DNA of 64,000 nucleotides, from positions 7,516,582 through 7,580,581 of the forward strand of contig OZ004583.1 of assembly GCA_963924555.1 (NCBI GenBank), read 5' to 3'. Numbering within the stretch: the first letter of the stretch is position 1; each line of letters starts with the position of its first letter. Made by a program: the position numbers and the translations under genes. Below, in pieces: positions 49,692-56,401 of the stretch. The stretch is from Crambe crambe. Taxonomy: Eukaryota > Porifera > Demospongiae > Poecilosclerida > Crambeidae. The notes beneath the pieces were generated by a model that was given only the letters and a program-made list of their open reading frames with translations, searched no databases and had not been told where the DNA came from.

Positions 49692-50430
49692 CTGCTAAGA
49701 CCTCCAAACAACTATAGGCTACGTAGGCAAGTAGAGGCATGCATGTCTAGTCATTCCTTAAAAAAAAAGTGATGAAAGCAAACATCAAAGCTTCTTCAAA
49801 GCAAAAGCACTTGAATCAAAGCGCTTATCGATCTTTCTATTGTTCACTGAGATCTCTATTTACTGATAGTGCCGACATGCCGACAATGAATATTCATCAG
49901 CAGGATATTTCCCGTTTTTCTCCCGGATAACTGGATGTGCAAAAATGCACGGTTTTGGAAGCCAAAGGGATATTCATTCATTTAGCTTTCTTGCTAAAAG
50001 TACAAATCCAAGTACTTATGTGTCCCCAGAGCGATTTTTTAATTTGGGCTCACTTTGGGGTTCAAAGGTCAATCGTCAACATTTTTATGTACGCGCAAAC
50101 CCACGTGCACAACTGGATGGGGGCACCATAGATCGGGCAATCAATGACAGCAGATTGGCCTGTTCGCAAGATACTGCTTGACTTGTAACTCACCTTAATT
50201 TCATTGTTTCATCAGTTCAGTTTAATGATATTCACTATAAAAAAAAAAATTAAAAAAAATTAATTTTTATCGTCAACAGCGCGCTCTTCCCACGGATTTG
50301 GCGGGAAATTTCCAAAATGAAAAGGTTGAGTTTGAGCAGAAGAAGGACCCTGAAAAAAGTGTGCGAGTACATATTGAATACAGAGTAATTACAGAGTAAT
50401 AATTATGATAGACAATAATATTTTTAATAG

Positions 50431-51619
50431 GTTCTATTTGTAGTCTTGGAGCACTCAAGCTGATGTTGAGTGATTATAAATATGGGGGAGAGAGACACTC
50501 CATCACACCTCATCCATTACTTGCTTCTTTGCCTGGTAAAAATAAAGTGAATGGACTCGTGGATTAATCATTTCTATTTGGCTACACATTCATTTGCTAC
50601 TGTGCACTATTACAGATATATCATCAGATATAGTAGCTGGCCACCAATATGATTGCCATGAATTCTATCTGGCATTGCTTACCAGCATTGAAAACAGACT
50701 GGATGATAAGTAATTAAGACCACATGATACCATGTTGTACATACCAGTATATACATTATTATGCTATAGGGGTAAAGCTGTCATGGAATCCATTTTTCTA
50801 TGAATGTACACAGCCAGCGTAAGAATGATAATGATAATTTTTTTCCCATCAGTGCTAGCTACAGGGACAATAATTAATAATTTCAGTTACATGTACACAC
50901 TGTGGTTTCAAGTTGCAGCAGGGATGCATCACAAAAACATCATGTTTAGAATTGCAGGTGAGCTGTCCCAAGGAAATTATTCTCATTTCCATTTAAAGGG
51001 CATCAACCCCGTTCATATTCAAGAACTACTATTGGGTCATGTGGCAGGTACTTAAGCAGATATGCTGCATATTCTGTCACAACTACAGTCCCCTAATTTT
51101 TAGATGTGGTACTGAGAATGTGTCATTAGAGTCTAAACATGGATTCTTAAAACCACCCAAGCAACTTTGCATTCACATCACTGACCTGAGTTCTAAGTAT
51201 GCAATGTACACTACATGATAATTATTGTGAACACTTAATTTCAGGAATTACAGGGGTCCAAGTGTTCAGATTCAGGTTAAATAAAACTCTATTGGTGATA
51301 ATATTATACTTTCAATACACACCTTTTTATATTACACATGTGTAGAACTACATACTCAAGATTCCCAATGAAGGGCACTGGTACCAACTTCGTGGGCTTG
51401 TTGTTTATCAGCAGTTAACCAATTCTATAGGACACTATACTGCCTTCTTTAGGTCCTTAAAGGATCCAATGCAATGGTTTCATGCTGATGACAATCATGT
51501 AAGTTAAGCCCTCCCTCATAGAGACACATATTAAACCTGTATACAGGTTATGCCAGTGAGCATAGCAACTGTCCTTCAACAGCATCCCTTCATTTTGTTT
51601 TATGAACTTCATGAAGAAG
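50431..51619 (+). pseudogene. MULE gene part 1: ubiquitin-specific protease (USP, C19)-like region
   Basis: Exons about 50431-50535, 50616-50709, 50770-50818, 50887-50957, 50999-51047, 51104-51196, 51245-51275, 51346-51498, 51547-51619. Landmarks in USP order: AGHQYDCHEFYLALL (QQD-HEF box), two zinc pairs (CTHC; CGRC), LCIHITDL, then the His box GHYTAFF followed by WFHADDNH and the C-terminal FILFYE. The layout resembles USP22-type enzymes, which hydrolyse ubiquitin isopeptides. The catalytic Cys box (GNTC-type) expected upstream is not found before the terminal repeat, an in-frame TGA lies at 50801, and two exon junctions in this part do not keep frame. So the copy is damaged or N-terminally truncated. 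Confidence 0.72.
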
Positions 51620-51673
51620 GTACAGATAGTCTAAACTTGTCTGCTACACAGTCATAACCAATAATAAATACAG

Positions 51674-52461
51674 GAAAGCAGCAACCATCACTTTCATTGC
51701 ACCAGAGCATCCCACTTCTTGGAAAAGTTTGGTTAACAGATGAGGTATATGCAACTATTATTATGCATGAACAATAACAACCAAAAATCTTAGATAATTG
51801 AAGGGTACTTCAACTTAATAGCATTGGAAGGAGCAACAGTGAGTTAATTACAATTTTGAATTTCATTTTTATCGCCATAAATAGAGAGCGAAGAAAGTAA
51901 AAGTGTTTGATGGAAGGTTTCTTAATACATATGCAAGACGTGGTTTTTCTGGCCTCTCATCATCTCATAAATCAGTAAGATATTGATGATTTAATGTTAC
52001 ATATTCATATACATAATATAATGCTTCATAGAAAGATGTTTTGCATAACGATTTATTACTGTTCATAATCAATGATAAAGGAATCCACTGGACCCTTTTG
52101 GTTAGAGAAAAATACTTAAAGAATACAAATTACTGTTACATACTTTAAAGGTACTTGATATGAGAAAGAAAGAGGTCAACTATTATCATAGAAAATGCCT
52201 GTCCAGAAAAATGGATCCGATTGTGGAGTATTTATATGTCAGGTACATACTGCACTGTGGGCTTAATATAGGATGATAGTGATGTTATTAATACAGTATG
52301 CTTTGCACATTGTAAGAGAAGATCCCATGGATTTCAGTCAGGTGAATATTAAATCGCCTCATATGTAGGTCTATGGGTTCAGTCATATGACATTTTCATT
52401 AGGATGATATGGGATTAGTGAGAAAGATGATGTATGAAGAGGTGCTCTGTGGAAGCTTATT
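51674..52461 (+). pseudogene. MULE gene part 2: Ulp1/SENP-like SUMO protease (C48) region
   Basis: Exons 51674-51744, 51794-51838, 51885-51974, 52032-52100, 52151-52242, about 52272-52341, 52403-52461. The start WLTDEIIEGYFNLIA matches the Ulp1 entry motif (WLNDE-I--Y-N-L). Then come LLLFIINDKGIHWTLL with the catalytic His-Trp, VLDMRKKEVNYY (the Asp strand) and the C-terminal FSQDDMGLVRKMM. The catalytic Cys segment is unclear: a candidate HCG lies near 52255, where DCG is expected, in sequence whose frame is disturbed. The first exon continues in phase from the USP part, and the last splices in phase to the next part through the acceptor at 52526. Plant Kaonashi MULEs also carry Ulp1-type domains. 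Confidence 0.75.
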
Positions 52462-52526
52462 GTAAGTTCACCAGACACTAAATGTATATGTAAGCTTTTC
52501 AATACATAATACTACTTACTAATCAG

Positions 52527-54580
52527 AACTAGAAGGGAAAGGGAAAAGATTTTAAGTCAGAGAGTGGACCAGCCTGAAACCTATTACAACCCACAAATAT
52601 TCCTGGAGCCATTACAAGCAAAAAACCTACACAAAACACTCTTGATATCCACCCAGAAAAAAACATCAAATTCTGAAGTCAAAATCATTAGCACTTCTCT
52701 GCCCCCAAGAAATGCAATATCAACACACCTCAATTCTCATACATGCTCTCCTATCAAAAAACAGCAATCAACTCCGTATGCACTTTTGGAAGGTAACATT
52801 GTTACCAAACAATCTCAATTTCCCGTTAGCAAATCCAGCTCTGATAAAAGAAATAATTCACTTCTTCCACCCACTTATAATCCAATAACCAGCCCATGTC
52901 ACTCACTACCTCTACCTGATTCAGTTCATGAATCCAGCATTGATCAAAGAAATAATTTACCTCCTCTACCCACTTACAGTCCTATAATCAGCCCATGTCA
53001 CTCGTTACCTCATGAATCCAGCATTGATCAAAGTTCACATCCTCCACCCACTTACAGTCCTATAACCAGCCCATGTCACTCGTTACCTCATGAATCCAGC
53101 ATTGATCGAAGTTCACGTCCTCCACCCACTTACAGTCCTATAACCAGCCCATGTCACTTGTTACCTCGTGAATGCAGCATTGATATACCTCCTTCACCCA
53201 CTTACAGTCCTATAATCAGCCCATGTCACTCGTTATCTCATGAATCCAGCATTGATCAAAATTCACCTCCTCCATCCACTTACAGTCCTATAATCAGCCC
53301 ATGTCACTCGTTATCTCATGAATTCAGCGTTAATCAAAGTTCACCTCCTCCACCCACTTACAGTCCTATAATCAGCCCATGTCACTCGTTATCTCATGAA
53401 TTCAGCGTTAATCAAAGTTCACCTCCTCCACCCACTTACAGTCCTATAATCAGCCCATGTCACTCGTTATCTCATGAATTCAGCGTTAATCAAAGTTCAC
53501 CTCCTCCACCCACTTATAGTCCTATAACCAGCCCATGTCACTCATTATCTCCATCTGATTCAGTATCTCCCACTAATCCTCCAGAAGTCATTACTCCTAG
53601 TCAAAACCAATTCAATAAAAATTTCGAGATACCAGATCTCCATCATATCACAAAACATGATAATCTTCCACCCTTGCTACATGAAATACTCCCGAAATCA
53701 TATACTTACATCTTTCAAAAAATTGATATTTCCACTAGCAATTTAGTATGTTCAGTTACTTTACTCACCAATACTTCGTCAAGAGATGGTGCAGAACAAT
53801 GGATTGTTGATTTTCAAGACAAAACCAAGACAACCTACCGAATCACTAGAGGTGTACAGCCAAAAGGGAAAAGGATCCTCTACAAAACAGTGAGGCACTG
53901 CCAACATAAAAGGAAAAAGTCGAAGAGAGTACTCAAACGACTGGACAGTATCAGAAACAAAAAAACTGAGTGCAATTCAAGATTTACCTTGAGGGTACAT
54001 AATATGGACACCTCTACAAACATGATCCACAAAACACACCCCTGTGAAATCACTTTAGTGTGGGACCACAATCATGGCCTGGAATGTGCTAAAGCACTTA
54101 GTTTTAGGCCCATTGATCCAGATACAGTAACAAAATTTCATTCTTACTTTGATCAAGGTCATTCACCTTCATCAGCTTTACATTTGCACTGGCTAAATTT
54201 GGCCATAGAGTACAATGATGAATTGGAGTATGTCAGAGCAGATCGTTCCTTCAGTCCTCAGTATGGTGACGTTTTTTACCTATACAGAAAATGGAGAATC
54301 AAAAATCATGATGAACGAAATGGTGAGCCAATGTTCAACAAACTAGAAGAGATGATAAAGGAATACAATCAGAAAAATGGATCAGAGGGGGGCAAAGCAT
54401 TTCTTCAAAAGTTTGAAAGCGTTGACAATAAATCACAGAAGTGGGAAGATAAACCTGGAGAAAGCATTGACACTCCTCTTGTACTAGCTGTATGCACACC
54501 CTTGATGGCTAGGGCTCATACTATGCTACTACAGGCTGGTGAACTAGTTTATTGTGATAGCACTGCCAGCTTAGACAGAT
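52527..54580 (+). pseudogene. MULE gene part 3: PPTY repeat domain and first half of transposase
   Basis: A 2-kb open exon. Residues from about 52850 to 53560 form nine imperfect units of 22-27 residues built on PPPTYSPIxSPCHSL; six keep PPTY, a PPxY WW-domain ligand. The last four units are almost identical in DNA. After a linker comes a Lys/Arg-rich DNA-binding-like region (GKRILYKTVRHCQHKRKKSK) and a Cys/His stretch typical of MULE N-termini, then the transposase core entry ELVYCDSTASLD with the first catalytic Asp at about 54556. The frame breaks near 54578. Confidence 0.82.
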
Positions 54581-56216
54581 GCATACCCTGGGAGTTGTTA
54601 TCACTTCTGGAGAGAGTGAAAGCACACTCATACAATCTTTTTCTTACCTTAGAACTCTTATGCCAAATAATGCTTTCTTTGGACGAGGAAGTAAGGGTCC
54701 ACAGATGTTTATCACAGACGACTGTGAAGCTGAAAGGAATGCCCTTAAATTAGTCTGGCCTGAATCAGTGCAGCTTCTCTGCATCTTTCATTATCTGCAG
54801 AGTTGGTGGAAATGGTTATGGGACTCTAATCATGGTATTGCTGATCAAGACCGACAACCAATCATGCAGGTTATTCATGCTCTAGTTTATATGACTAGTG
54901 AAGAAGACCTAGAGCAGCGGTATAAGAATTTAACAGATCCTAATAATAATTATAGCCAATAGCTTTTGTAACCAGTACCCCCAGCTCTGTAAGCATCTGG
55001 AAATCTTTTGGAAAAGAAAATCAGAATGGGCACTTTCACACAGGATTGCAGCTATCACAAAGGGAAACAACACCAATAATTATGCAGAAGCTGGAATCAG
55101 AGTACTTAAAGAGCTAATATTTGGGAGAGTGAAAGCATACAATCTTGTACAAATGTTTCAGTTTGTTACGACAACAATGGATGCTTACTACTGTAGCCGA
55201 CTTCTAGATATTGCTCACAGCAGATTTCAACCAGGCTTATCTCTTCGGTATAGAGAGTTAAATAAGATGCAGAATAACATAACTGATATGAAACATATCA
55301 GAGATGCAATTTACATGATTAAAGAAAAGATAACACTCAGAGGAGGGATAGAGGTGGTTTTTGAGTATCTAGTTGATATGGAGCTAGGAATATGCTCTTG
55401 CTCTACTGGAAGCAATGGAGCTGCTTGTAAACATCAGGCTGCCATAGCCAAGAAATTTCAAATTGCTTGCCTTAACATAGCTCCTATGCACTCAAAAGAA
55501 GCACGACACACCTTTGCAATAATTGCCAGGGGAGTGCAATACACCAGGAATATAGATTTTTATGCTGATTTACAAGAGAGCAACTCAGAGAAAATTACAA
55601 TCATTACCAATAGCAGTGATGTACAGAAGTACTCTAACACTACAAAGGATAGCCAGGATGTATAATACTGACGGCAACGAATATAGCAATGAGATACCTG
55701 AGAATTACTCTGTCACTGCAAGGGATAGCCAGGATGTCAATAATGAATCGGAAGCACAGGTGTTACTGTACAAAACCTCCTTAATGGACATAGTGGAGGA
55801 CCTTACCAAGAGATTAATGGAAGGAGATCATAACTTGTTATCAGGAACAAACAAATTTATAAATTCCTACAAACAGATGGAAAATTCCCAAGCTCCCAAC
55901 AGTGCTCTATCCTATGCACTACATAATTTTGGGAAATCGGACAGTGAGTAATAATATACATAACTATATTATTTTCAATGCCTTATAAACTATTTTAGGA
56001 GCTGTGTGGTCAAATGGTAGGCATGGTTCCTACATAAAAACCAACTCAGGAGGGATCCAAAGAAGAAGGAAAGGTTTATCAAGAGGTACAAAAATGGCAC
56101 CCCAGGGAAGGCCAGCTAAGTGGAAGTTACAAAATCACAACATACCACTTAAACCCAAACGTCCCAAGCAACCACACAATTTTAGTACAAAACTTAATAG
56201 CAGGAAGAAGACTTGA
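54579..56216 (+). pseudogene. MULE gene part 4: rest of DDE transposase, SWIM zinc finger, basic tail
   Basis: From 54579 the core continues in another frame (LGVVITSGESE, then ITDD with the second Asp near 54711, then CIFHYLQSWWKW). After a stop at 54960 the frame changes again and reaches NNYAEAGIRVLKE, which has the catalytic Glu. A SWIM zinc finger follows at about 55393-55440 (CSCSTG-7-CKH). A third shift occurs near 55655. The last exon, 55999-56216, is joined in phase from 55945 and encodes a Lys/Arg-rich tail. Three frame breaks mean this copy makes no full transposase, unless they are assembly errors. Confidence 0.8.
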
Positions 56217-56401
56217 ACAATATCCATACTTTAACTGAATACTGAATAGGAATATATGCTTACCTGACTTCTTCATGCTTCTTACTAGATGAAAAGAGGC
56301 GATTTGTAGTCACGTTCGCGCGCGCTATGGCAAAAAAATTTGTGCGACGATTGACCTTTGAACCCCAAAGTGAGCCTAAATTAAAAAATCGCGTCCCCGG
56401 C

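Follow-up and report, generated by a model that had tools for sequence, protein, structure and literature searches.

The stretch of DNA analysed here, which we call the window, comprises 64,000 nucleotides of the sponge Crambe crambe (contig OZ004583.1, forward-strand positions 7,516,582 to 7,580,581, assembly GCA_963924555.1) and holds a Mutator-like element (MULE) on its + strand at 50031–56392. The terminal inverted repeats (TIRs) of this element are 47 nt long and 98% complementary, and outside them stands a pair of 9-bp target site duplications (TSDs). Between the TIRs, all on the + strand and in exons with splice signals, lie first the pieces of a ubiquitin-specific protease (USP; exons 2–10), then those of a SUMO protease of the Ulp1 type (exons 11–14, part of 15, and 17–19), and finally a linker and MULE transposase (exon 20). 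Pfam recognizes the MULE domain in a single reading frame of the window (54561–54962; E=4.1e-10) and the UCH His-box exon at 51346–51507 (E=6.1e-5; 23.2 bits, just below the curated cut-off of 23.9 bits), and the SWIM finger is weak when the window frame is taken alone (E=0.043). An earlier, sequence-only reading had proposed a single gene with the landmark order USP, Ulp1, PPTY linker and MULE/SWIM on one strand between TIRs, and this order is found in the window; it was also correct that most exons from 51346 to 54580 connect in phase, and the junctions that it singled out, 51619/51674 and 52461/52527, were both recovered exactly as exon borders.

Sixteen exons of the window copy were found by a script through their borders (exons 3–14 and 17–20, exon 20 by its start only), while the positions of exons 2 and 21, of what remains of exons 1 and 15, and of the exon 20 end were judged by eye and then checked by alignment. 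Direct alignment to other copies in the genome gave the sizes of three gaps: relative to a copy on C8, the window copy lacks 215 nt at ~50363, which removes most of exon 1 including the USP Cys box, and 222 nt at ~52185 in the Ulp1 domain, the cause of the disturbed Ulp1 Cys region that had been remarked on before; relative to the copy at C8:4698, 46 nt of the transposase are absent near 54581, and the exon 20 frame is broken by this gap and by later frame changes. The C8 copy is damaged as well, for it has the exon 4 stop in common with the window and the Cys box of its USP does not lie in frame; an in-frame version of this box survives in a copy on C3 (L048; tblastn 1.2e-18). Among the members of its MULE family, the window copy is one that has decayed.

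The intact architecture exists in relatives of the window copy, two of which carry open models inside their TIRs and so support the single-gene reading. The copy on C16 (L031, family A) has 21 exons with GT–AG borders and a single open frame of 1522 aa that starts just inside the 5' TIR; its TIR arms measure 54 nt, or 53 nt with the outermost base assigned to the TSD, and its 9-bp TSD, CCTAGGGAG, is perfect. The copy on C5 (L035, family B) has 20 exons, a frame of 1836 aa with the same domain order, TIR arms of 113 nt and a TSD that agrees at 7 of 8 positions. These TSD lengths (9 bp in C16 and the window, 8 bp in C5) lie within the range of 8–11 bp given for MULEs (PMC6446971). In the spliced C16 protein, Pfam finds UCH (residues 36–325, 2.5e-35, profile 2–254 of 254), Peptidase_C48 (residues 348–513, 5.7e-20, profile 1–208 of 217) and MULE (residues 979–1075, 1.2e-9); the SWIM motif is present, and no SWIM match is listed for the whole protein at E up to 0.1. 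All four profiles match in C5: UCH at 6.3e-27, C48 at 4.6e-20 (profile 1–175 of 217), MULE at 6.9e-10 and SWIM at 1.4e-4, above the cut-off. In these relatives, the protease part thus lies inside the TIRs and is not a host gene of its own beyond them.

The two families agree in further respects. Intron phases are equal in C5 and C16 at 20 of 20 exons, and identity between the two proteins is 32% in the USP, 40% in Ulp1, 28% in the linker and 38% in MULE; the similar values across USP, Ulp1 and MULE are as expected if these parts descended jointly. Both models contain the USP motifs (Cys box, QxDAxEF, two CxxC, GHY and ADD), the Ulp1 motifs (HW, YYDS and NGxDCGVF), the DDE motifs and the SWIM motif CxCx8CxH, and the D, DD and E columns of MULE are invariant among the four sequences aligned. 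The Asp of YYDS is presumably the catalytic Asp of the Ulp1 domain, by SENP numbering. Among solved structures in PDB, the C16 Ulp1 matches SENP1 (4.1e-24) and SENP2 (9.2e-24) in sequence and the C16 USP matches a Ubp8-type chain, 4fip (8.8e-13), and USP36 (7.3e-11), while the C5 matches are to SENP5 (2.1e-16), a USP30/USP14 chimera (1.3e-14) and USP2 (5.4e-11); alignments to Ubp8, SENP1 and SENP5 locate the catalytic residues in the C16 and C5 proteases. Together, these models and alignments confirm that the predicted USP–Ulp1–MULE arrangement is real, and make it nearly certain that full copies of this MULE family encode a polyprotein of USP, Ulp1, linker, MULE/SWIM transposase and basic tail, in which the linker is variable and rich in Pro, Ser and Thr and the Ulp1 domain is, as judged by its matches, SENP-type.

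Table 1. Parts of the MULE copy in the window, with positions counted from the first letter of the window.
Feature	Positions	Strand	Remark
5' target site duplication, gtccccaga	50022..50030	.	7/9 vs 3' copy
5' terminal inverted repeat	50031..50077	+	TIR pattern bounds seven 6.1–6.4 kb elements including window copy
Exon 1 remnant, ATG, MKRLSLSRRRTLKK...	50317..50363	+	by eye; Cys-box part absent here, kept in C3 copy L048
Exon 2, USP	50431..50535	+	by eye
Exon 3, USP box HQYDCHEF	50616..50709	+	
Exon 4, USP, frame broken	50770..50818	+	1 nt shorter than in C16
Exon 5, USP first zinc pair CTHC	50887..50957	+	
Exon 6, USP	50999..51047	+	28 nt shorter than in C16
Exon 7, USP second zinc pair region	51104..51196	+	
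Exon 8, USP	51245..51275	+	
Exon 9, USP His box GHYTAF and Asp ADDN	51346..51498	+	
Exon 10, USP C-terminal strand FILFYE	51547..51619	+	
Exon 11, Ulp1 start WLTDE	51674..51744	+	
Exon 12, Ulp1	51794..51838	+	
Exon 13, Ulp1	51894..51974	+	
Exon 14, Ulp1 catalytic His HWTLL	52032..52100	+	
Exon 15 remnant	52151..52185	+	by eye; remainder and exon 16 lost in 222-nt gap
Exon 17, Ulp1 Cys box NGSDCGVF	52192..52242	+	
Exon 18, Ulp1	52297..52341	+	
Exon 19, Ulp1 end	52403..52461	+	
Exon 20, PPTY linker (tandem repeats, mostly 78 nt) and MULE transposase, DDE, SWIM	52527..55943	+	end by eye
Exon 21, basic C-terminal tail	55999..56216	+	by eye, likeness to C16 exon 21
3' terminal inverted repeat	56346..56392	+	
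3' target site duplication, gtccccggc	56393..56401	.	

Selection on the coding sequence was estimated as the ratio of nonsynonymous to synonymous substitution rates (dN/dS) by the Nei–Gojobori method between the window and C16 copies, with exons 1, 2, 4, 15, 16, 21 and the later part of exon 20 left out. The ratio is 0.185 for the USP (bootstrap 0.084–0.298; 183 codons) and 0.092 for the first part of exon 20 (464 codons), and for Ulp1, where dS is saturated, the bootstrap upper bound is 0.135 (139 codons); these values are rough because dS is near saturation, and they include exon 6, part of which the window copy has out of frame. It might be argued that the proteases are passive passengers, pieces of host USP and SENP genes captured in Pack-MULE style with no role in transposition, and acquisition of host gene fragments is known for MULEs (PMC6446971). 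We regard this as most improbable, however, given that the domains are full-length and in a single frame with the transposase, that their phases are equal in two families, that dN/dS is well under 1 in both USP and Ulp1, and that a USP also stands upstream of the transposase in a third, distant MULE lineage.

Several points weigh against the explanation preferred here, among them the near-saturation of dS and the counting of exon 6. Only two of the five TIR-paired copies inspected (C16 and C5) yielded an open model, and the window copy, L032 and L034 did not: in L032 (C9) the transposase frame is split and the automatic model broke at exon 9, and in L034 (C10) the exon 2 donor is unlike that of C5 and the model stayed broken. 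Clear TSDs were looked for in these two copies, whose TIR arms are 53 and 93 nt long, and none was found; the TSD of the window copy agrees at 7 of 9 positions only. Exon 18 of C5 is doubtful owing to a weak donor. More generally, the exon joins are hand predictions from splice signals and homology in which the choice that kept the frame was preferred, and an open frame alone is weak evidence because the models were built by hand aiming at one; more weight attaches to the phases, which agree in two families, and to Pfam matches that cover full-length domains across many predicted junctions. The transposase may also have a separate start inside exon 20, where C16 has an early Met that is absent in the window. 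Such a start would suit an element with two genes, in which protease and transposase have separate transcripts and act in trans, as would the fact that exon 20 is one long exon joined to exon 19 by a predicted junction. This junction, however, has GT–AG borders and equal phase in the window, C16 and C5, with the frame open across it, and we find the two-gene arrangement rather unlikely.

A search of the 143-Mb assembly (119 contigs), in which all match counts are lower bounds, returned 67 matches to the window transposase and 108 to the C16 protease, and by Pfam 54 matches to MULE, 98 to UCH and 8 to C48. It also gave 14 matches to the Wnt family, a sign of an animal genome. None of the 8 C48 matches falls on a copy of the element, which the profile misses because the short exons are scored one by one. 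Upstream of 13 of the 54 MULE matches, at a distance of up to 8 kb and on the strand of the MULE match, lies a UCH match, as against 0.15 expected; one of the 54 has UCH downstream, as part of a neighbouring element, and none has it on the opposite strand. The figure of 13 is a lower bound since the UCH search caught only some copies and missed the one in the window, and yet it stands for fewer independent cases because several look like recent duplicates, with equal scores at three on C9 and two on C12. The independent cases of a USP with a MULE are family A, family B and the third lineage. The association of USP with MULE is not chance.

The third lineage, with copies on C1, C14 and C3 (L069, L070 and L071), has a transposase 20% identical to that of C16 and a canonical USP upstream of it. 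In L069, the USP pieces (Cys box 9.6e-9, middle box 9.8e-4, His box 1.1e-10) are followed by a C2H2 finger (1.5e-5) and then MULE (1.2e-8); tblastn searches with the models of C16 and C5 found no Ulp1 in this lineage, and no Pfam family matched two further frames of the L069 stretch. The C14 copy carries the repeat AAAGCGACTAATAACGGGAAT at each end, the two ~8.3 kb apart, and the C1 and C3 copies carry it at a single end; assigning one more base pair to the repeat leaves the C14 copy with a perfect 9-bp duplication, TTAATAATG. An intron after the USP Asp box lies at the same place as in C16, which is compatible with common descent of the two USPs or with a USP intron of old date. Close to the start of another MULE family on C14 (L067 and L068; L067 is 44.6% identical to family B) stands a Ulp1-like remnant, which is weak (E=0.008 with C16, 0.005 with C5).

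Some observations on these lineages stand by themselves. Behind the third-lineage transposase, a frame at L069:7700–8001, CKKCNSHQDMIGCDLCDKWFHW, resembles a PHD finger, as recognized by eye only, and directly before the element on C1 a stretch like the family-B TIR (L069:555–665) has no counterpart in the C14 copy. In three MULE families, the region between protease and transposase contains tandem repeats that are particular to the family and rich in Pro, Ser and Thr (window 52832–53551, L035:4408–5700 and L069:4223–5393); their spacing in the window is mostly 78 nt, and their length differs between the C5 and C10 copies. A scan of viral contigs with the C16 transposase exon gave 3 pattern matches and no relative, though a virus-only collection says little.

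A 22-base pattern of the family-A TIR, with up to 2 mismatches allowed, occurs at 67 sites in the genome, and its reversed control at none. Seven pairs of such sites are 6.1–6.4 kb apart, the window element included, and six are only 448–454 bp apart (for example C1:280266–280713); 11 pairs of a TIR variant with 2 mismatches are 1.0–1.6 kb apart, and there are single pairs at 0.6 and 2.9 kb. The short pairs look like non-autonomous derivatives that would have been moved in trans, and the TIR-bounded derivatives show past, not present, activity of family A. The six elements of 448–454 bp, identified by the TIR pattern, resemble miniature inverted-repeat transposable elements and are probably derived from family A. 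A cluster on C9 (7.46–7.54 Mb) consists of three family-A copies, equal in match score, within 75 kb and in both orientations; one of them (L032:882–7880) sits inside a longer, interrupted inverted repeat and is without TSD, which suggests that local duplication and not transposition was at work. Of the 67 matches to the window transposase, 21 come from C10 and are short pieces of linker; they all lie on the + strand, spread over 0.7 Mb (~166–881 kb), and none of the 54 MULE matches is among them; one such unit, L066 (C10:876500–884500), contains Ulp1 exon pieces whose Cys box reads NGSDYGV. These units look like decayed protease–linker units that have no transposase.

The arrangement suggests a transposon that may bring its own tools against the protein-tagging controls of its host. 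The best explanation of the whole, and one that we consider probable, is a cut-and-paste MULE with a one-polyprotein anatomy and tag-stripping proteases. The mechanism itself, in which proteases borne by the transposase strip ubiquitin and SUMO at the element, we judge to be evenly balanced between right and wrong. The transposase would bring both proteases in cis to donor and target DNA, where the proteins freed of ubiquitin and SUMO could be the transposase itself, host proteins of silencing or repair, or both; loss of ubiquitin would shield the transposase from the proteasome and make it longer-lived, and loss of SUMO would oppose and weaken SUMO-dependent silencing. The sequence-only reading had already suggested that the element may counter host ubiquitin/SUMO silencing, and such a role is plausible. 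SUMO-targeted ubiquitin ligases make hybrid chains of SUMO and ubiquitin, and the two activities together would suit such mixed chains. A broader proposal, that this is a selfish animal transposon with a combined deubiquitinase and deSUMOylase eraser for mixed SUMO–ubiquitin signals and that MULEs in this genome have captured USPs repeatedly, is offered tentatively and is more doubtful. PPxY motifs, which resemble ligands of NEDD4-type ubiquitin ligases, number 6 in the window frame, 2 in C16 and 0 in C5, and are not conserved in family B.

Two other uses of the proteases have to be weighed against this mechanism. They might, as the sequence-only reading had put forward in its weaker variant of a transposase that is processed, cut their own chain and free the transposase in the manner of viral polyprotein proteases, as the continuous frame of 1522 or 1836 aa, the N-terminal position of the proteases and the long variable linker before the transposase would allow. 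Enzymes of the USP and Ulp1 types cleave behind the Gly-Gly with which ubiquitin or SUMO ends. However, Gly-Gly occurs in C16 only at 925 and 1000, both within the transposase part, and in C5 at 397, 1228, 1318 and 1654, none of them shared with C16 between Ulp1 and the transposase core; nor does Pfam show a ubiquitin-like domain in the whole C16 protein or in the two parts of C5 that were scanned, which lie on either side of the repeat linker. Self-processing is less likely for want of a shared Gly-Gly junction and a ubiquitin-like domain, and we consider it decidedly improbable. Alternatively, the proteases might act on marks of DNA repair or chromatin, such as ubiquitinated histones, and so aid excision or insertion rather than oppose silencing or degradation. 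The PDB matches of the C16 USP include Ubp8 and USP36, and PMC2836005, where it touches on function, suggests that the Ulp1 and OTU (ovarian-tumour) domains of transposons may act on repair factors; that paper offers suggestions only and leaves the role of these domains in transposon groups open. Matches as strong as these do not identify a substrate, and nothing here separates this alternative from protection or anti-silencing, but we hold it to be unlikely. Domains of both the deubiquitinase and the SUMO-protease type, kept at low dN/dS in one frame with a transposase, point to ubiquitin/SUMO control as something that DNA transposons really target; with open-model copies present in a sequenced animal, this role is testable by removing each active site.

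The sequence-only reading knew of no MULE with a USP, and in the open-licence literature (mostly titles and the starts of abstracts, with Repbase and subscription papers outside) we likewise found none, whether with USP alone or with USP and Ulp1. It also named the plant Kaonashi MULEs as carriers of Ulp1. That association stands, yet it is not confined to plants: Ulp1 is encoded in MULEs of Arabidopsis, maize, rice and melon and also in Mutator elements of hydra and lancelet (PMC2836005). These elements resemble ours in that a MULE encodes a C48/Ulp1 domain, and differ, as far as their description in the relevant part of that paper goes, in that no USP is mentioned for them. Hydra MuDR-6_HM, for which an OTU motif is listed (PMC6446971, Table 1), is likewise a MULE from an animal, and its protease domain too belongs to a deubiquitinase class, but it has OTU instead of USP, and its table row names no Ulp1. 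The extra motifs listed for MULE groups in the same source include FAR1, SET, OTU, PMD, DUF and minisatellites, and the words ulp, protease, ubiquitin, peptidase and sponge are absent from its main text (PMC6446971). Outside MULEs, Ginger1 transposons join a transposase to a C-terminal Ulp1 or OTU (PMC2836005); they differ in their Gypsy-integrase-type transposase and in the C-terminal place of the protease, and no row of the table there has both proteases. The Trichomonas protein XP_001314237.1 joins a USP-class domain, Peptidase C19, to a transposase_11 domain (PMC2836005), and so belongs to another transposase class; in its brief description there no Ulp1 is mentioned. SENP1 and SENP2, and Ubp8 and USP36, are the closest solved relatives of the C16 proteases by sequence, but these are host enzymes without transposase fusion. 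Against this background, Ulp1 and OTU in animal MULEs were already known, and what appears to be new, and is well supported by the predicted models, is a MULE with a USP–Ulp1 pair that shares one frame with its transposase.

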